In this document: positions 5,358 through 46,663 of the stretch, one piece after another
Layout: each line of letters opens with the position of its first letter
How positions within the stretch are numbered: the first letter of the stretch is position 1
Source: Acidobacteriota bacterium
GTDB taxonomy: Bacteria; Acidobacteriota; Terriglobia; Bryobacterales; Bryobacteraceae
NCBI GenBank assembly: GCA_016213775.1
Contig: JACQZR010000129.1
Coordinates: forward strand, 1 to 64,000
Reading direction: 5' to 3'
DNA: 64,000 nt
The notes under the pieces: model-generated
The model's database searches: none
Told to the model about the DNA's origin: nothing
The model's input: only the letters and a program-made list of their open reading frames with translations
Position numbers and translations under genes: made by a program

Positions 5358-6143
5358 CTAGAATCGGGGGATTCGGGCGAGCATGGAGCGGGTGTTGCCG
5401 GCGTGTGGAAGTTCGACCGAATCAACAATGCGCCAGGTATCGTCCATGGAGCCGATGTAGCGCGCCTTGTCGCGGTCCTGGCCCATGAGGATGACGAAGA
5501 CTTTGCGGTCGGGGTAATGGAGGAGGCGGTACTGGATGGAGCCCTGGTCGGCCTTCCAGCGGTCGGTGGCGGGGTGGCCGAGTTTGCGGATGACGCTGCC
5601 GTAGTCGTCCTGCCAGTTGAGGCCGAGGGCCTGCTGTTCGACGGCGATGTACTGAATATCCTTACCGGACTGGCGGCCGCGAAAGAGACTAACGATGATA
5701 ACGCAAACGATGATGCCGCCGACGAGGGCCATGGCGATGAGTTTGCCGATGCGGGATTCGGCGTCATTATCGAGCCGGATGCCGACGACACCTCGCGGCG
5801 AAGGTGGCTCCTGGGCGGGGACGGCGGCGCGGGCGAAGTCGTTTACGGCTTTGGGCATCTCGATGACGCGGCGTTCGTGGGGGTAGAGCGCGCCGGCCTT
5901 GTATTCGAGTTCGCGCTTGAGGCCGACGATCATGACGGGCTCGTCGATGCGGGAAACTTCGCCGAGAAAGCTGCGAGGGACCCACACCTCCTGGCCTGAT
6001 TTTGAGTTGACGACGAGAATTTCGGACCAGGAGGCCTTTTGATAGTGCCACTCATTATGTTCGATATTGAGAACAGGGGGATAGAAAGAGAACGGACGAC
6101 GTCCCATGCTCTCAAGCTGTGGTGGCAAAGGAGGAATCGACAT
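5358..6143 (-). CDS. Hypothetical one-pass membrane protein
   Basis: 261 residues from ATG 6143 ([14 protein letters not shown]), chosen because GGAG sits nine bases upstream; an ATG at 6158 is possible. Residues 1-110 are soluble and contain [20 protein letters not shown] and [19 protein letters not shown] Pro-rich linker is followed by one clear transmembrane helix ([20 protein letters not shown]). The C-terminal 100 residues ([38 protein letters not shown]) look like a small alpha/beta module. I do not recognise a named family. It is divergent from maeB with only 31 bases between the starts. Confidence 0.6.
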
Positions 6144-6174
6144 GCTGCCCGTCTCCATCTTAACTTGAAATCCA

Positions 6175-8436
6175 ATGACCATTCGAAAAGAAGATGTCCT
6201 GGAGTACCATGTACTGCCTACTCCGGGAAAAATTGCGGTAACGCCAACCAAGCCATGCCGCACACAGCGCGACCTCAGCCTGGCGTACACGCCCGGCGTC
6301 GCCATCCCTTGCATGGAAATCCATGAAGACCCCAGCAAGGTATACCAATATACGGCAAAAGGCAATCTCGTGGCGGTGGTCACCAACGGCACCGCTGTAT
6401 TGGGATTGGGAAATATCGGCCCCGCCGCGGGCAAGCCGGTGATGGAGGGAAAGGCGGTTCTCTTCAAGAGGTTCGCCGATATTGACGTTTTCGACATTGA
6501 GCTGAACACGCTCGATCCGAAGGAGATTATCCGGACGTGCCAGTTGCTGGAGCCGACGTTCGGAGGGATCAACCTGGAGGACATCCGCGCTCCTGAGTGT
6601 TTTGAGATTGAGCAGGAGTTGCGGCGGACGATGAAGATTCCCGTGTTTCATGACGACCAGCACGGGACGTCCATCATTGCGGGAGCGGCGCTGTTGAACG
6701 CCGCGGAGTTGTGCGGAAAGAAACTGGAAGACATGAAGGCCGTGTTCAATGGAGCGGGCGCCAGCGGAATCGCTTGCGCCGAGCACTTTGTGAATCTCGG
6801 GGTGCGCCGCGAGAACATCACCATGTGCGATACGCACGGAGTGATTCATGAGGGCCGCGCGGAGGGGATGAATCAGTACAAGGCGCGGTTTGCGAAGAAG
6901 ACCGAAGCGCGCACTCTGACCGATGCGATGGTGGGCGCCGATGTATTCTTCGGGCTGTCGGCGGCGAATTGCGTGACTTCGCAGATGCTGCTGACGATGG
7001 CTCCGAACCCGGTGGTGTTCGCGATGGCGAATCCGGACCCGGAGATTGCGTATGATGTCGCGGTGGCGACGCGCAAGGATCTGATCATGGCGACGGGACG
7101 TTCGGATTATCCGAACCAGGTGAACAATGTTCTCGGGTTCCCGTTCATATTCCGGGGCGCGCTCGATGTGCGCGCGACGGCGATCAATGAAGAGATGAAG
7201 CTGGCAGCGACGCGGGCGCTGGCGGCATTGGCGAAGGAGGATGTTCCAGATTCGGTGCGGCGGGCGTATGGCGTGGAGCAGATGGAATTCGGGAGGGACT
7301 ACATCATTCCGAAGCCGTTTGATTCGCGAGTGCTGATCTGGGTGACGGCGGCGGTGGCGCAGGCGGCAATGGATACCGGCGTCGCGCAGAATCCAGTGGA
7401 TATTGAGCAGTACAAAGAGCAGTTAGCGCGCAGGTTAGGGAAAGCGACGGAAGTAACGCGCGTGCTGATTCACAAAGCCCAGCGGCGTCCGGTGCGCGTG
7501 GTTTTCCCGGAAGGCGAGGAGCCGAAGATACTGCGGGCGTGCCAGGTGCTGGCCGATGAAGGAATCGCGAAGCCGATCCTGTTGGGAAAACGTGAAGTGA
7601 TTGCGGCCCGTGTGGCGGAAATGCGGTTGGACATCGGCGGAGTGGAGATTATTGACCCGGCGACTTATGACAAGCGCGAACGGTACGTGCAGGAGTTCTA
7701 TCAACTGCGGCAGCGGAAGGGCGTGACGTGGAAGGAGGCGGCGCAGCACACGTTGGACTATGAGACGTTCGGGTCGTTGATGGTGCGGTGTGGAGACGCG
7801 GAGGCACTGGTATCGGGGTTGACGAGGCACTATCCGGACACGATCCGGCCGGCGCTGCAGGTCATTCCGATGCGCGAGGGTTCGCGGAAGGTGTCGGGGA
7901 TGTACATGCTGATCACGCCGAAAGGCGAGGTTTACTTCCTGGCGGATACGACGGTGAACATCGAGCCTACTGCCGAGGATTTGGCGGATATTGCGTTGGA
8001 GGTGGCGGACACGGTGAAACGATTGGACGTGGAGCCGCGGATTGCCATGCTGTCGTTCTCGAATTTTGGGAGCACGCGGCATCCGCTGTCGGATAAGGTG
8101 CGGCGGGCGGTGGAGTTGGTGAATCGGCGGCAGCCGGAACTGATCATTGAAGGGGAGATGCAAGCGGATACGGCGGTGACACCGGACATCCTGAAGGAGA
8201 CCTATCCGTTCAGCCGTTTGAAGGAAGGCGCGAACGTGCTGATCTTTCCGAACCTGGAGTCGGGCAACATTGCGTACAAGCTGCTGATGCGGATTGGCGG
8301 GGCGGATGCGATCGGGCCGATTCTGATGGGTCTGAGTAAGCCGGTGCATGTGCTGCAGCGCGGGTGCGAGGTTTCGGACATCGTGAACGTGGCGGCAATT
8401 GCGGTGGTGGACGCGCAAGGTCAGACGGCGCGATAG
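6175..8436 (+). CDS. maeB: NADP-dependent malic enzyme with phosphotransacetylase-like C-terminal domain
   Basis: 753 residues. It oxidatively decarboxylates malate to pyruvate with NADP in the cytoplasm. The malic domain occupies about residues 1-430, with [12 protein letters not shown], the metal/substrate region [20 protein letters not shown] and the Rossmann motif [15 protein letters not shown]. Residues 430-753 form the phosphotransacetylase-like domain ([34 protein letters not shown]) typical of long MaeB proteins, where it is regulatory and not a functional Pta. The length matches the roughly 750-760 residue norm. No clear Shine-Dalgarno precedes the ATG, but the N-terminus aligns with family members. 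A GC-rich hairpin follows the stop. Confidence 0.93.
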
Positions 8437-39839: not shown

Positions 39840-40262
39840 TCACCCGCCTGGCGGATTCACTACCCACACTGCCTGTTTCGCAAACCACCGGCACGTGCTC
39901 TTGGGTTTGGGCCCGCATACGCTTGCGTGCGACGGCTCAGCCGGCAGCGGGCTAGTGTGAACCGTCTGGTTCTTCGACCTAACCTCCCCCGTCAGCAGAG
40001 AGGCTAGACCATAACCCTCATGTCCAGCCAGAACACGACGAGCATTACCCCCTTCCGCGTCAATGATGTCCTGGCGATAAACCGACATCGGGTCCCCATC
40101 CTCATCGTCCTCGAATGCCGCGGAAGATGGGCGCAGCCGTCCGAGATTCTCATCGAGAAAGAAATGTCTCGGCGGCACCCGGCGGAGCAACGCGGTGCCC
40201 TCCGCTATTGAGGGATCGTCGGAGAACCTCTTGGCGCAATCCTCGGGAGTACTCACTCGCAT
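39840..40262 (-). CDS. Third gene of the TIGR04255 cassette, uncharacterised
   Basis: 140 residues starting three bases after the upstream stop. The start is Asp/Arg-rich (RVSTPEDCAKRFSDDPSIAE) and the core is LLRRVPPRHFFLDENLGRLR, PSSAAFEDDEDGDPMSVYRQ, GYGLASLLTGEVRSKNQTVH and EPSHASVCGPKPKSTCRWFA. The L-x-R-R-x-P-P, PSS-AF and P-x-H-A-x-V-x-G-x-K-x-K-S patterns recur in a widespread short family that I recognise without a name. No enzyme motif is seen. It is cotranscribed with the TIGR04255 protein and the DGW-type protein. Confidence 0.55.
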   Translation of the reverse strand: MRVSTPEDCAKRFSDDPSIAEGTALLRRVPPRHFFLDENLGRLRPSSAAFEDDEDGDPMSVYRQDIIDAEGGNARRVLAGHEGYGLASLLTGEVRSKNQTVHTSPLPAEPSHASVCGPKPKSTCRWFAKQAVWVVNPPGG

Positions 40263-40265
40263 TCG

Positions 40266-40829
40266 TCACTTTCCGGAAATGCGCTCCAGCCAGGACCTCA
40301 ACAGATGGTGGTTGCCCGCAAGCGGTGTTTCGCAAGACTCACCTGATTCCAGGTGCTCAGCGTAGAAGCTGACAGAGGTGGCGGATTCGACGTAGATCTC
40401 GATATCGAAGCCTTTTGTGTGCCACTCAATCTGGATACCTCCGCGTACGGTCGGAACCACGCTCGGTGTGGGGGTCTCCTCATCGAGGAACTCGGCAAGC
40501 AAACAGACCGCGCGAATGACCGTTTGCCGTGGAACTGGCTTGGCGGAATAGGAGTTCCAGCCGTCCGGCAACCGCAGCAGATCGATCGCATCTTCCGCGC
40601 TCTTCAAGAAGGAATGCGGCATAAGGCGATTTACACGAATCTCGACTGGTGCCCTTTGGCCACGGGTGCGAATCAATATCTTCGGCGATTCAAGCCCAGC
40701 CGGGGACATCGCTACCGATGGCCGGGTCAAAGCGTCCGGGAAGGTGGAGACGGATAACCATGGATGTGCGAGGATCGCATCTTCCGTAAGAGTGTAGTGT
40801 GTCTCGCTGTTGAGCAATGTATCAGCCAT
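40266..40829 (-). CDS. Second gene of the TIGR04255 cassette, uncharacterised
   Basis: 187 residues, its start eight bases inside the TIGR04255 gene's end. The central motif LLRLPDGWNSYSAKPVPRQT is followed by FLDEETPTPSVVPTVRGGIQ and IEWHTKGFDIEIYVESATSV. The D-G-W-x-x-x-x-A-K-P and V-V-P-T-x-x-G-G-I-Q-x-E-W-H patterns recur in small bacterial proteins of unknown role. It has no signal peptide. Its fold looks alpha plus beta. Confidence 0.55.
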   Translation of the reverse strand: MADTLLNSETHYTLTEDAILAHPWLSVSTFPDALTRPSVAMSPAGLESPKILIRTRGQRAPVEIRVNRLMPHSFLKSAEDAIDLLRLPDGWNSYSAKPVPRQTVIRAVCLLAEFLDEETPTPSVVPTVRGGIQIEWHTKGFDIEIYVESATSVSFYAEHLESGESCETPLAGNHHLLRSWLERISGK

Positions 40830-41661
40830 CGATTCTTTCCCACGCTTTGTGCATTTCCGGCGTCGTCAAGTCCGCGAAACCCTTCACTATCCATTCCCGG
40901 CCCAGATCGAAGAACTCAAATGCTCCATTTATCCCCGCGCCGAAGGGGGCGCCGCGCGCCGTCAAGTGAAGCGCCAGAATCGGCGAATGGTCTGACTTCT
41001 TCCAGGAGGGTTGGACGGACGCATGCAATCTGCCCGATGGTTTCCCTTCCGGATCGGGAATCACGAAGCGCATTCGCACAGCCACGTCCTCGGGTTCAGA
41101 CAGGAACGAACCGCGACGCAGTGGGGCACACATCACTAACGCCTTCATTGCCTCCCCGTGCCGTTCCCACACGCCTGCGGGCTCTATGTAGTTCACGTAA
41201 GTGATTTCGCACTGGTTCACTGCAAGGGAACCGAGTCGTTCCGCTTTGAGAAAATCCTCGAGCACGCCCACCTCGAAACGGAACCGCTCCCGAATCGGTT
41301 CATAACGGGGATACATAACCAGGTCTTTCGACTTGCGCCAGTTATGAATGAAGCGGTCGGCCTGGAATTGAATCAGCTCAGAACCGGAATCATTCAGGAA
41401 CCAGGACCGGGGGACGGGCCGACCCTCTTCTAGAGTAATCTCCACGGCATGGGACGGTCGTTCGAACTCCTCCACAATCAGCGGCAATGGGGCATGTTCC
41501 TGAATAAACGGGAATACTCCTCTGAAACGCTCCCATAGGAGACCAGCGTGTGCGCCCGTCATGCCGGCGATCGGCTCGAATTGCAGAGAGAGAACAGTTT
41601 CAGTGAGAGGGGGTTTGCGGAATTCGGGCAGGTCCGATGGCCTACCGATGTCTAGAGTCAT
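40822..41661 (-). CDS. TIGR04255 family protein
   Basis: 279 residues from ATG 41661 (MTLDIGRPSDLPEFRKPPLT). The opening KPPLTETVLSLQFEPIAGMT and the sequence LIQFQADRFIHNWRKSKDLV are the TIGR04255 signature, as is VNQCEITYVNYIEPAGVWER. The family is sporadically distributed and uncharacterised; the scattered occurrence hints at lateral transfer. It heads a three-gene operon. Its promoter region carries a 40-base interrupted palindrome with a TATATT element inside. Confidence 0.8.
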   Translation of the reverse strand: MTLDIGRPSDLPEFRKPPLTETVLSLQFEPIAGMTGAHAGLLWERFRGVFPFIQEHAPLPLIVEEFERPSHAVEITLEEGRPVPRSWFLNDSGSELIQFQADRFIHNWRKSKDLVMYPRYEPIRERFRFEVGVLEDFLKAERLGSLAVNQCEITYVNYIEPAGVWERHGEAMKALVMCAPLRRGSFLSEPEDVAVRMRFVIPDPEGKPSGRLHASVQPSWKKSDHSPILALHLTARGAPFGAGINGAFEFFDLGREWIVKGFADLTTPEMHKAWERIDG

Positions 41662-42598: not shown

Positions 42599-43147
42599 AT
42601 GCGGCCCGACGATGACAGGACGATACGGGGTTTCCTCGCCGGCGACCCCGCTTCGGTGTCTCTGGTGGAGCGCTGGATTACGGCGGCCTCCCGGGCTTTT
42701 GAAAGCCGGCTCGCCTCGCATCGGGAAGACCTGCGCCAGGACGTTCTCGCCGAGTTGACGCGCCTGCTCCGGCAGGATAAGTTCCGTGGCGAATCGTCGC
42801 TGGTCAGCTACGTCTGGCAGATCACCAACCACGCCTGCATCCGGCAGACACGCCTGCTGAGCCGCTGGGCCGCGCCGTCTGCGGAACGGCAGGAGGAGCC
42901 AAGAGACGAACAGCTATCGGCAGTGGACGGCCTTCTCCAGCGCGACCGTATGGAACGGATCCGGCGGATTGCGGCCCAACTCCCCGAAGAGTGCCGGCAG
43001 TTGTGGAGTCGTGTGCTCTCTGGCGCCAGCTATCAGCAAATGAGCGCCGAGTTGGGGCTGGCCGAGGGCACCTTACGTGTCCGCCTGCTGCGCTGCCGGA
43101 GAAAGGCTCAGGCAATTCGCGAAACGTTCGAGCGTTCGAGAATGTAA
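42599..43147 (+). CDS. ECF-type RNA polymerase sigma factor
   Basis: 182 residues after a GGAGGGG Shine-Dalgarno. Region 2 includes FESRLASHREDLRQDVLAEL and SLVSYVWQITNHACIRQTRL; region 4 is LPEECRQLWSRVLSGASYQQ followed by ELGLAEGTLRVRLLRCRRKA, the helix-turn-helix that binds the minus-35. A TAGAAT element at 42576-42581 may mark its own promoter. It is cotranscribed with the zinc-finger anti-sigma 53 bases downstream. Confidence 0.85.
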   Translation: MRPDDDRTIRGFLAGDPASVSLVERWITAASRAFESRLASHREDLRQDVLAELTRLLRQDKFRGESSLVSYVWQITNHACIRQTRLLSRWAAPSAERQEEPRDEQLSAVDGLLQRDRMERIRRIAAQLPEECRQLWSRVLSGASYQQMSAELGLAEGTLRVRLLRCRRKAQAIRETFERSRM

Positions 43148-43200: not shown

Positions 43201-43986
43201 ATGAACTGCACTGAGGTCACAGAACGGCTGCCGTGGCTTGCCAATCGGACTCTCTCGGACGAGGAGCGCGCCGAGGCCGAGAGCCATTTGGCTACCTGCG
43301 CCTCGTGCCGCGCGGAGTTCCAGGACATCGTTGATTTTCTGGAGCATGGTTTTGCTCATCCTTCGCCCGAAGCAATCGTCCAGTTCGTGTACGGCAGCCT
43401 TGGCGATTCCGATCGAATCGCTTTCCAGCGCCACATCGACGAGTGCGCCGCCTGCCGCGAAGAAGTGGAGATGACCAGGCAGAGCAAAGCGGCGATGCCC
43501 GCGCCACCTCGCCACAACTTGCGTTGGCTAGCCCTCGCCGCCGCCGTCCTCCTTGCCGTGGCGGGCCCAATCACCTATCTCTACCGCCAGGCTCTGCAAC
43601 GCGAAGCTATCCTTCTCGCTCGCGCCAGTAATCTGGAACAACAACTCGGGCGTCTGCGACAGCCCACCGCCAGCGCGCGCGTCGTGGACCTGCTCCCTGA
43701 AGCCTTTCGCCAGCGATCCGAAATCATCCCGCCAATCACCACCATTCCCTCCGCCAGTCCGGAGACGCTGTTTCTGTTGAACTCGCAGATCCCCATGAGT
43801 GAGCGTGGATGCGAGGTCCTGCTGGAGCGAGAAGCCACCACCCTCTGGCAATCGGCCGCAGGCGAGCGCGGGTCCAACGGTGAGTTTCTCGTGCGGATCC
43901 CCGCGGGGTTCCTCAAGCCGGGCGATCATTCTCTCCATGTGGTCTGCGGGCACTCACGCGAGACGTACCGGGTGAACGTGAATTGA
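43201..43986 (+). CDS. Transmembrane zinc-finger anti-sigma factor
   Basis: 261 residues. The N-terminal ZAS motif H-x3-C-x2-C is at residues 29-36 (SHLATCASCRAEF), and a second copy, HIDECAACREEVEM, lies near residue 80. A single helix (LRWLALAAAVLLAVAGPITY) at about residue 105 leads to a coiled-coil (LEQQLGRLRQPTAS) and an extracytoplasmic sandwich-like domain ending VVCGHSRETYRVNV. It sequesters the ECF sigma factor encoded upstream. The doubled zinc finger is unusual. It converges with the CHAT gene across a seven-base gap. Confidence 0.85.
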   Translation: MNCTEVTERLPWLANRTLSDEERAEAESHLATCASCRAEFQDIVDFLEHGFAHPSPEAIVQFVYGSLGDSDRIAFQRHIDECAACREEVEMTRQSKAAMPAPPRHNLRWLALAAAVLLAVAGPITYLYRQALQREAILLARASNLEQQLGRLRQPTASARVVDLLPEAFRQRSEIIPPITTIPSASPETLFLLNSQIPMSERGCEVLLEREATTLWQSAAGERGSNGEFLVRIPAGFLKPGDHSLHVVCGHSRETYRVNVN

Positions 43987-43993
43987 TCAAACC

Positions 43994-46663
43994 TTAGAGC
44001 TTCCCCGCCAGAACAAACGGCGCCCAATAATACGGGTGCGCGTACTGGCCGGAGCGGATCAGATCCAGCTTAGCCTGGCGAAGCGAATCGGCGTGGTCCG
44101 CGCCTTTGCTGAGCCGCTGGTAAAACCCGGCCATCAGCGACACCGTCGATTCATCGCTCACCGGCCACAGACTCACCGCTACGTTGCGCGCGCCGGCCAG
44201 CAGGAACGCCCGTATGAAGCCGAGAATCCCTTCTCCCCGAAGCTGTGGGCCGAGTCCCGTCTCGCAGCCCGATAGCACCACCAGATCGGCGTTCCAGCGC
44301 AAGTGCAGCACGTCGGCCGGGCTGAGGATGGAGCCCGACGCGAGCAGGATTCCCGAGGTTGCGGCCGAGCCTTCGCGAATCTGGCCGTGGGCCGCGAAAT
44401 GCACCCGGCGGCTGCGCGCGGCCTCCGCCGAATCGGTCACATTACGCTTGCTCACCGCGTTGCCTTGAAACAGCATCGCCCCCTTCGGAAACGACTTCGC
44501 GATCTCGCGAATCTCTCGCGCCGCGCCGGGGAGGTCGCCACGCGGATCGCCATAAGCCACAAGCTCCGGCCCCGCGCCGCCACGGGGTCGCATGGCAAGC
44601 GAAGCATAGGCCGCGGTTGAGGGAGCATACCCAACAGTCCAGCGCCGCACCAGATACGGAAGCTGTGCGTAAGCCAGCGGCGTCGCAGGGCCGGTCAACA
44701 GGGCCTCAAACGGCAGGTAGTGCAGTGCGCCATCCGCGACAATCACCAGCTTCTGCTTTCCGGCAATCTCCGCCATCGCGGGCGCGATGCAGATGCGGTA
44801 CATCTTCTCGGCCGCTTGCGCATAGCGGCCTAAAGCCGCCCGTCCGGGTTGCGCCAGCAGACCGCGGATCTGGCGAACTTCATTCGCCAGTACACCCGCG
44901 GCGGGTAGTTGCTTCGCAGTGATTCCCGCCTGCGTGACAACAAACAGCCAAGAGCGGGTTTCCCCAAGCTGGTACTCCAGGATTGCCGTGCCGGGCTCAA
45001 CCACCGGCTGCTGGAACCCCGTCATCGCCGGTTCCGGTTTGGCGCGGTTGTCCAGCAGCATGTCGAGGAGGCTTCGTGCCCGCGCCCTCTCTACTCCCGC
45101 AAAGGCGGCGCCTACATCGTTGCGATCCATCAACAGGTCGACATAGAACTCATACCAGGACCCGCGGCTGGCCAGAAAGAGCGCTCGCAGATTGCGGCTC
45201 TCGACGCGCGTGCGAATGCCTTCCACGATGGAAAGCGCCTGCTCCGCATACGAGCGCGCCTGTGCGTGGTTGTTCTCCGCCCGCGCGAGCCTCGCAAGCG
45301 CCGTCAGGGCATGCGCCTTTGGAGCCGGGTTGTCCAGACCGTCGCTGGTCTCCATCGCCTCCCGTAGATGCACGGACGCTTCCTTCGTCCGGCGAGCCTG
45401 CAATTCCAGCAGACCCAGTTGCGTCAGCACACGGCTTGTCCCTTCGCGGTTGCCATGGGCTCGCATCGGGGGCAGCGACTCTTCCAGCAACAGCCTAGCC
45501 TTCGGCAACCGTCCCAACGCCTGTTCGGAAACGGCGGCAATCGCCTTCGCCTGCACATGCTGCCAGCCCAGTCCGCTTTCCTCGCTCAGTTGGATCGCCG
45601 CGTTCAATTGCACCAGAGCTTCGGTGTGACGCCCTTGCGCCGCCAGCGCCTCGCCAATGTTGCTGAGAGCATGGACCTGCGCAGTCTTGTCGCCATGCGC
45701 CTGGTGCAGTGGGATGGAGGCGCGTGTTTGCGAAATGGCATTGTCGAAATCCCCGAGAGCGATATACAGTTCGCCCAACTGCACCAGGGTGACGGCTTCT
45801 CCATAGCGGTCTTGGAGGGAGCGGAACCGGGTCAGAACATCCGTGTACGTCTCGATGGCTGTCTGGTAATTGCCTGCCGAGTTGTGCGCAATGGCCATGT
45901 TGCGAAGCACTTCCGCCTCAGTGCGGCGCTGTCCTGTCGCGCGATGGTGTTCGATGGCCTTGCGATAGTTGGCGAATGCCTGCTCGTGCTCGCCGCGCGC
46001 CGCATGGAGCAATGCCGCCGAGTTGAGTACGGTAGCCTCGCCGTTGCGGTCTCCCAACCGCTGGTACAGCTCCGCTGCTTCGTTCATGGCGGCGAGTGCC
46101 TTTAGCGTGTCCCCGAGCGCGGAATGCGCACCCGACTCGCCTTGCAGGCACCGCGCCTCGAGCCATGCGTCCTTCAGTTTCCGGCTCATCTCTTTAGCTG
46201 CGCCGTATTGATGCAGCGCCGCCTGGCGTCCGGCAGCCGTGGCTGTTTCCATTTGCCGGTAGCCTTCCGTGAGAGCACGGATCGCCTCCACGCGAGCCAC
46301 ATCGTCCGGCCGCGACTCGCGCCACTGGAGTATCGTGACCCTGTATCGTTGTGCAGCCGGCGCCGATGTGCGGACATCCAGTAGATACTGGCCCGCACGC
46401 GTCACAACCGCAGCCACCGTTCTTGCCGGCTCCCCCAGCGTTACACCGCCGGGATCGCGCATTTGCAGCGAAACGCGAATGCCGTTGATCTGCGCAAAGA
46501 AGAACTGCCCGGCACTCAGCGTGACTGTGTGGAAACCCGGCTGGTTCGGCACCACACGGCCTTCCACACTCTCACCGGCTTTCCACAAGCCTTGTCCCGG
46601 CAGCGTCGACACGCAAGCTAACGTGGCAAGCACGGGCAAGGTCCCAGATCGCATTGCCGGCAT
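43994..46663 (-). CDS. Secreted TPR-CHAT caspase-like protease
   Basis: 889 residues from ATG 46663; ATG 46654 is possible. A signal peptide leads to a small beta-sandwich (about 25-115), then about ten tetratricopeptide repeats (ALAAMNEAAELYQRLGDRNG, AFANYRKAIEHHRATGQRRT). The C-terminal CHAT domain (about 590-889) has the catalytic His in RRVHFAAHGQIREG and Cys in LVVLSGCETGLGPQLRGEG, the clan CD dyad. It should cleave a protein substrate, possibly after Arg or Lys, but specificity is not predictable. Its adjacency to a sigma/anti-sigma pair is a frequent arrangement in this phylum. Confidence 0.88.
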   Translation of the reverse strand: MPAMRSGTLPVLATLACVSTLPGQGLWKAGESVEGRVVPNQPGFHTVTLSAGQFFFAQINGIRVSLQMRDPGGVTLGEPARTVAAVVTRAGQYLLDVRTSAPAAQRYRVTILQWRESRPDDVARVEAIRALTEGYRQMETATAAGRQAALHQYGAAKEMSRKLKDAWLEARCLQGESGAHSALGDTLKALAAMNEAAELYQRLGDRNGEATVLNSAALLHAARGEHEQAFANYRKAIEHHRATGQRRTEAEVLRNMAIAHNSAGNYQTAIETYTDVLTRFRSLQDRYGEAVTLVQLGELYIALGDFDNAISQTRASIPLHQAHGDKTAQVHALSNIGEALAAQGRHTEALVQLNAAIQLSEESGLGWQHVQAKAIAAVSEQALGRLPKARLLLEESLPPMRAHGNREGTSRVLTQLGLLELQARRTKEASVHLREAMETSDGLDNPAPKAHALTALARLARAENNHAQARSYAEQALSIVEGIRTRVESRNLRALFLASRGSWYEFYVDLLMDRNDVGAAFAGVERARARSLLDMLLDNRAKPEPAMTGFQQPVVEPGTAILEYQLGETRSWLFVVTQAGITAKQLPAAGVLANEVRQIRGLLAQPGRAALGRYAQAAEKMYRICIAPAMAEIAGKQKLVIVADGALHYLPFEALLTGPATPLAYAQLPYLVRRWTVGYAPSTAAYASLAMRPRGGAGPELVAYGDPRGDLPGAAREIREIAKSFPKGAMLFQGNAVSKRNVTDSAEAARSRRVHFAAHGQIREGSAATSGILLASGSILSPADVLHLRWNADLVVLSGCETGLGPQLRGEGILGFIRAFLLAGARNVAVSLWPVSDESTVSLMAGFYQRLSKGADHADSLRQAKLDLIRSGQYAHPYYWAPFVLAGKL

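Follow-up and report, generated by a model that had tools for sequence, protein, structure and literature searches.

Toxin-antitoxin modules can be defence systems. In toxin-antitoxin-chaperone (TAC) systems, the HigBA, MqsRA and HicAB pairs are described as being served by SecB-like chaperones (PMC5105189). In CmdTAC, the antitoxin CmdA loses its chaperone CmdC to a phage capsid protein and is then degraded, which frees the ADP-ribosyltransferase CmdT (PMC11618068). PDC-M32 is a PADLOC label which one paper applies to Sinorhizobium prophages (PMC12429752). Within the literature searched (most subscription papers and bioRxiv-only preprints lie outside it) this last paper was the sole one to contain PDC-M32, no paper on TIGR04255 was found and no description of the three-gene arrangement presented below was seen.

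The locus lies in a 64,000-nucleotide stretch of acidobacterial DNA, called here the window. It comprises three open reading frames, T, A and B, all on the minus strand and in the order T-A-B, placed upstream of secA, the start of which is found 54 nt beyond B on the same strand. T belongs to TIGR04255, which to our knowledge is known only as a family without function. The features are as follows.

40822..41661, minus strand: T, TIGR04255 family protein, 279 aa (open reading frame passing the NCBIfam cut-off)
40822..40829, minus strand: 8-nt overlap of the T stop and the A start, presumably with translational coupling
40266..40829, minus strand: A, DGW-domain protein, 187 aa, proposed antitoxin or adaptor (C-terminal match to PADLOC PDC-M32A)
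40263..40265, minus strand: 3-nt spacer from the A stop to the B start (open reading frame coordinates)
39840..40262, minus strand: B, predicted ADP-ribosyltransferase (ART)-fold protein, 140 aa, proposed toxin/effector (AlphaFold2 model, VIA-align)
40182..40184, minus strand: codon of B Arg27, first motif position, on the first strand of the model (Arg in 61 of 65 relatives)
40083..40085, minus strand: codon of B Ser60, second motif position, in MSV (Ser in 65 of 65)
39978..39980, minus strand: codon of B Arg95 (Arg in 64 of 65)
39927..39929, minus strand: codon of B His112, third motif position (His in 65 of 65)

The open reading frame calls agree with the original prediction in the coordinates of the genes, in the T/A overlap and in the three-base spacing of A and B. 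T scores 62.6 bits, above the curated threshold of 30 for TIGR04255, its best stretch covering model positions 2-134 of 252. For A and B, which had been described as conserved but unnamed, neither Pfam nor NCBIfam gave a match at E up to 1. The C-terminal part of A resembles positions 265-348 of the 375 positions of the PADLOC PDC-M32A profile (E 6e-13), and B matches PDC-M32B weakly (E 1e-3). Promoter and terminator scans of the locus gave no excess over shuffled sequences, and the G+C content is 0.56-0.60 across the trio, against 0.56-0.65 elsewhere in the 36-46 kb region.

On the strength of these matches and of profile comparisons, A and B are considered relatives of the PADLOC candidate PDC-M32. 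B reached 99.1% against PDC-M32B-type relatives, with controls under 1%, and 15 of 65 B relatives match PADLOC model PDLC04579 at E up to 0.1. The PDC-M32B-type relatives in turn reached 75% against a third group, B2 (loci L020, L205 and L208), whereas B and B2 compared directly gave 12% and the B profile does not find B2; A and the DGW genes preceding B2 were linked at 97.7%. B2 is counted as a relative of B because of the 75% link, its place after a DGW gene and the residues seen by eye. In PDC-M32, as in the trio, a DGW domain is followed by a closely coupled B; the B families are homologous and the Arg, Ser and His residues are recognised by eye in both. The difference lies at the front: PDC-M32A is a single chain of about 375 aa, whereas the trio has a separate TIGR04255 gene in the place of its N-terminal domain, and that domain was not matched by the T profile at E up to 10. 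The full two-domain protein is not present at the locus, where A aligns with profile positions 265-348 only; a PDC-M32B homologue stands alongside. Among the relatives the first gene varies: it may be T, a domain fused to A (L152 and L194-L196) or a 215-aa protein unmatched by the T profile (L151). A solitary DGW-domain gene was also seen in L002 (1495-2546), after a gene that by eye resembles an AbiEi-type antitoxin and without T or B.

The T alignment was used to scan a collection in which each of 84,980 species is represented by a single genome, which gave 201 pattern matches and 165 relatives, and the best 80 of the 165 were kept for reading, T, A and B being called with profiles made from the genes of the window. 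T-A-B in that order was present in 68 of these best 80 loci, T-A in four and T only in eight, a share that is uninformative on TIGR04255 at large because the scan was anchored on T and the closest relatives were kept. The recurrence of the trio exceeds chance; the lack of recurrence that would have counted against the original prediction was not observed. According to record titles, which can be wrong for bins, 66 of the 68 trios fall in nine named phyla (Acidobacteriota 30, Pseudomonadota 12, Planctomycetota 9, Nitrospirota 8, Myxococcota 3 and four more with one each) and two are unlabelled. Not all of the 68 are intact: L046, L093 and L105 have a split or short B, which in L046 and L105 is accompanied by a split T, and in L066 B is 1.5 kb away from A; L048 and L049 are near-copies of one another. 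Among the 12 loci without a trio, L085 is cut by the end of its contig and L095 holds a diverged B-like gene (18.6% in profile comparison) with Arg, Ser and His by eye; L057 and L108, with a PIN gene in the third place, and L110, with a gene of the S family, all described below, are also of this set.

The pairwise identities of T, A and B correlate over 61 loci (r 0.68-0.75; none of 1000 permutations was as high for any pair), which indicates that the three genes travel together. Over the same loci the mean pairwise identity is 42% for T, 34% for B and 25% for A, the least conserved of the three. In a tree of T with 68 rows (the window, 64 trios and three T-only loci), 19 phylum changes are needed against 34.7 in shuffles, so the inheritance of T is partly vertical. 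By a crude estimate, dN/dS between trios is mostly well below 1 where measurable, many pairs being saturated. It amounts to 0.10 for T, 0.31 for A and 0.18 for B between L071 and L073, and for T it is 0.08-0.12 in nine of 11 measurable trio pairs and 0.27 in L040/L044; the value of 1.16 for T of L048/L049 is meaningless, as the pair is near-identical (dS 0.01).

The AlphaFold2 model of B, built from 65 sequences, has a mean pLDDT of 95.7. Foldseek alone stayed below significance (best E 0.21), with KptA/Tpt1 and HopF (AvrPphF ORF2) as the first four matches. VIA-align, which re-aligns the candidates of Foldseek and warns that Z under 8 may reflect a common arrangement, placed Tpt1/KptA at the top (Z 8.3, 89 residues, rmsd 2.7 A), followed by HopF (7.2), Tse2 (5.5), DarT (5.4) and VPA0770 of Vibrio (4.9), and lower by cholera toxin A1 (4.5), Tne2 (4.3), RES (4.0), ParT (3.7) and diphtheria toxin (3.5). 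The entries of Tse2, DarT, RES, ParT and VPA0770 are titled as toxins or toxin-antitoxin complexes. The first clearly unrelated entries are met at rows 38 and 39, and the 37 rows above them presumably all belong to the ART superfamily, in many of its distant branches. It is this filling of the list by distant branches of one superfamily, the score alone being insufficient, on which the model-based prediction of B as an ADP-ribosyltransferase-fold protein is founded. In overall fold, as judged by VIA-align, B is like DarT, RES/ParT, Tse2 and Tpt1/KptA, whereas in sequence it has no detectable similarity to KptA and RES and its third motif residue is His instead of Glu.

Classical ARTs carry Glu at the third motif position. 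The motif of B is Arg-Ser-His, not Arg-Ser-Glu, so that neither an R-S-E nor an H-Y-E triad is found. In the model, the first strand would carry Arg27 and the second motif strand Ser60, while His112 would open the strand that classically bears Glu, the positions being set by the order of secondary structure elements, without a residue-level structural alignment. By eye, the PDC-M32B-type relatives and those on plasmids retain Arg, Ser and His, and Arg95 is lacking in most of the former. When the B profile was compared with those of KptA (3 sequences) and RES (24), the result stayed under 1%, yet this test is uninformative since KptA and RES, both ART-fold, themselves reached just 0.3% as a positive control. 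Sequence links of A, B and T to solved structures, and likewise the Pfam matches of the 65 B members, were weak (the former also scattered) and were rejected as chance. The search of BFVD with B gave nothing firm, the best match being an unnamed protein at E 0.013. In L052 (2584-3282) B carries a C-terminal extension of about 100 aa, which has no Pfam family.

The AlphaFold2 model of T (pLDDT 94.0) is taken to show two alpha/beta repeats, one face of the fold being polar and conserved, and residues Q98, Q100, N107, Q150, E152, N157 and R211 are invariant in 70 of 70 sequences. The 50 best rows of VIA-align are phosphagen kinases, the last one being McsA/McsB, with the best alignment at Z 9.9 (200 residues, rmsd 4.2 A, 6% identity), whereas in Foldseek a replication initiator and TBP come out on top. 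A SecB-like fold had been expected from TAC, but SecB is absent among the rows listed; at the sequence level T matched no Pfam family, SecB included, at E up to 1.

In some TIGR04255 operons the third place is taken by a PIN gene over the Pfam cut-off. In L057 the order is T, an A lengthened by a C-terminal tail, and PIN (E 1.5e-15), L108 has T, a 214-aa gene product and PIN (E 6e-7), L204 has T, a 173-aa gene product and PIN (E 1.7e-11), and in L214 PIN follows T without a middle gene (E 7e-8). PIN is an established toxin-type domain, the sole one among these partners, and its presence suggests that the third place is a toxin slot. HEPN-like genes in L220 (E 0.009) and L221 (E 0.017) and a HicA-like gene in L210 (E 0.038) are below the cut-off; L211 holds a homologue of the latter recognised by eye, without a Pfam match. 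A family of about 190 aa with a TQxCDL-like motif, named S, stands in place of A-B after TIGR04255 genes in L018, L023, L027, L030, L110, L200, L207 and L216. In a tally of 20 TIGR04255 loci, drawn from 247 sampled genomes of the phylum, which excludes the window and three weak places (L217-L219, with a T piece plus an A in L218), the partner was B once, B2 twice, PIN twice, HEPN-like twice, HicA-like twice, S three times by profile and once by eye and unclassified four times, with no downstream gene or a contig end in three cases. A distant TIGR04255 gene was also seen in L019 (3950-10968); it has a DPPY-type DNA methyltransferase on one side and a helicase-like protein of 919 aa on the other, and lies by eye apparently inside a type III restriction-modification operon.

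The distribution is sporadic, as the original prediction had stated for TIGR04255: within the phylum of the window, 19 of 247 genomes have a member of the family above its cut-off and seven of 297 have a match to B, the genome of the window included in both counts. At the secA site, defined by 1.5 kb upstream of the gene, the trio is absent from 11 of 11 readable relatives (10 of the same genus and one of the same family), 15 further loci being unresolved. The genes upstream of secA differ among these relatives (L117-L128), and the stretch looks like a site of gene gain. By eye, the genes found there include sensor kinases in several of the relatives, a TonB-receptor-like protein, a Uma2-like pair and small HTH genes. 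A second trio of the same genus (L024) occupies a different genomic place.

Carriage on mobile DNA was seen as well. Complete trios are present on two viral contigs, and a re-scan with a wider T alignment returned the same two. In L115 the trio lies amid tail genes, with matches to tape measure, tail assembly and minor tail proteins before it and a large tail protein after it. In L113 it adjoins an integrase, with a terminase small subunit further along, and is 95-98% identical to the trio of a Bryobacterales bin (L069). A third viral contig (L116, 57 kb) holds an in-frame fusion of the beginning of T with A (6001-6585) and no B was found there; the fusion is apparently the remnant of an internal deletion. 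A diverged trio follows the mobF relaxase gene of a Mycobacterium paragordonae plasmid (T at E 1e-43, A and B at E 7e-14), which has an annotated conjugative-transfer gene further on and is typed as non-mobilizable in PLSDB. Deposited phages gave no match to T of the window, B of L053 or the PDC-M32A relative of L003, and plasmids none to A or B of the window or to B of L053; the plasmid matches consisted of one for T of the window, which is the M. paragordonae trio, and four for the PDC-M32A relative.

A search for B gave seven loci, one of which is truncated at the contig start; in each of the other six, the window among them, A is adjacent to B. T without A and B occurs in L039, L041, L042 and L045, each time beside the same 377-aa neighbour, T-A without B in L043 and L063, and A alone in L031; the four T-only loci and L043 are all of one genus of the order of the window. 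B seems to be lost first and T last, which is the pattern expected if B is the harmful part, although the numbers are small and a scan anchored on T is blind to B without T. The lone T of that genus is kept with dN/dS of 0.20-0.33, and T may therefore have a role of its own.

It is proposed, as a reading we find moderately probable, that T-A-B is a tripartite toxin-antitoxin-like module in which B is the toxin, A the antitoxin and T a shared component similar to a TAC chaperone or sensor. A would bind B and restrain it, and T, as the constant part, would stabilise A or the A-B complex. T may also sense a trigger, for example phage infection, like the SecB-like chaperone of TAC; once the grip of T on A is lost, B would be freed and, by means of its Arg-Ser-His triad, could use NAD+ to modify a target or consume NAD+. 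Protection from phage would then be the benefit. This reading is favoured by the operon with its recurrent order, correlated divergence, the predicted fold and conserved residues of B, PIN in the place of B, A beside B in all six testable loci and T or T-A without it, viral and plasmid carriage and the absence of the trio from the secA site of relatives. Against it stand the insignificance of the Foldseek matches, the missing classical Glu, HEPN and HicA matches below cut-off and the four unclassed partners. The same is true of an A unlike any known antitoxin, a T without SecB match and retained alone, flanks that are not defence islands, a partly vertical T tree, unmatched deposited phages and the non-mobilizable typing of the plasmid.

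The likeness to TAC consists in the number of genes, three, and may extend to a constant component that is paired with toxins of different families, as in TAC (PMC5105189). The trio differs in that T has no SecB sequence match and is the first gene, and A has no known antitoxin domain; because of the missing SecB match T is said to work like a TAC chaperone and not to be a member of TAC. With CmdTAC the trio would share a toxin that is an ADP-ribosyltransferase, in B by predicted fold, whereas the triad given for CmdT is diphtheria-type H-Y-[E,D,Q] and that of B is Arg-Ser-His (PMC11618068). In a broader and more tentative proposal, which we hold with somewhat more doubt than belief, TIGR04255 would be the shared part of a large undescribed tripartite class with exchangeable effectors (ART-fold B, PIN, HEPN- or HicA-like proteins and S), parallel to SecB-TAC and unrelated to it, and B would found an Arg-Ser-His branch of ARTs that also powers PDC-M32. 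If so, TIGR04255, a family named for being sporadic, would gain a function as the common partner of toxin-type genes, and a second, non-SecB way of three-part toxin control would be added. TIGR04255 would be joined by a testable link to an ART-like family that Pfam lacks and to PDC-M32, the candidate defence system. Should the Arg-Ser-His triad prove active, known ADP-ribosyl chemistry would be broadened.

Other explanations of the same data have to be weighed. The trio could be an anti-phage system of the PDC-M32 kind in which T replaces the N-terminal domain of PDC-M32A and B strikes the phage and spares the uninfected host; the homology of A to the C-terminal third of PDC-M32A and of B to PDC-M32B speaks for it, as does carriage on prophage and viral contigs. 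We regard it as unlikely, though by no means negligible, since PDC-M32 is merely a listed candidate, the flanks hold few defence genes and PIN suggests a toxin slot, and it overlaps with the toxin-antitoxin-like proposal inasmuch as such modules can themselves defend. A small probability is given to T being an enzyme or effector, with a phosphagen-kinase-like two-repeat fold whose polar residues form an active site or ligand pocket, and with A and B as its regulators or targets. The arginine/creatine kinase-type rows filling the VIA-align listing, the invariance of the polar residues and the retention of the lone T under constraint would fit this, but Foldseek prefers other folds and the superposition is loose at 6% identity. 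T also stays when the third gene is PIN, as would be expected of a common partner rather than of the toxin.

A housekeeping or stress operon, with the ART-like fold of B as a structural coincidence, is deemed quite improbable. Z near 8 can indeed result from a common arrangement and no sequence homology of B to any ART family was found; nevertheless the first 37 rows are, as we take them, of one superfamily, invariant residues stand at the motif positions and the distribution is sporadic and partly on mobile DNA. The toxin-antitoxin-like module remains our preferred reading.

The likeness to defence cassettes suggested originally stood in part: the genes are tightly coupled, sporadic and conserved, with A and B related to PDC-M32, and it is the defence-island setting that was not borne out. 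The flanks of 67 loci with a trio hold 354 proteins; among the 150 of these closest to the trio, scanned with PADLOC at E up to 1e-8, few defence genes were found, a count made without baseline, and such a setting is left unsupported. In all, 71 PADLOC families were matched, and the 25 listed, with one protein each, were 23 type I specificity models, HEC-05 and Vsr; integrases made up six and PIN proteins four of the 150, as raw counts without baseline. Near the trio in the window, a sigma-factor-like (42599-43147) and an anti-sigma-like open reading frame (43201-43986) were recognised by eye, together with a TPR protein of 889 aa, CHAT-like at its C-terminus (43994-46663), on the strand opposite to these two.
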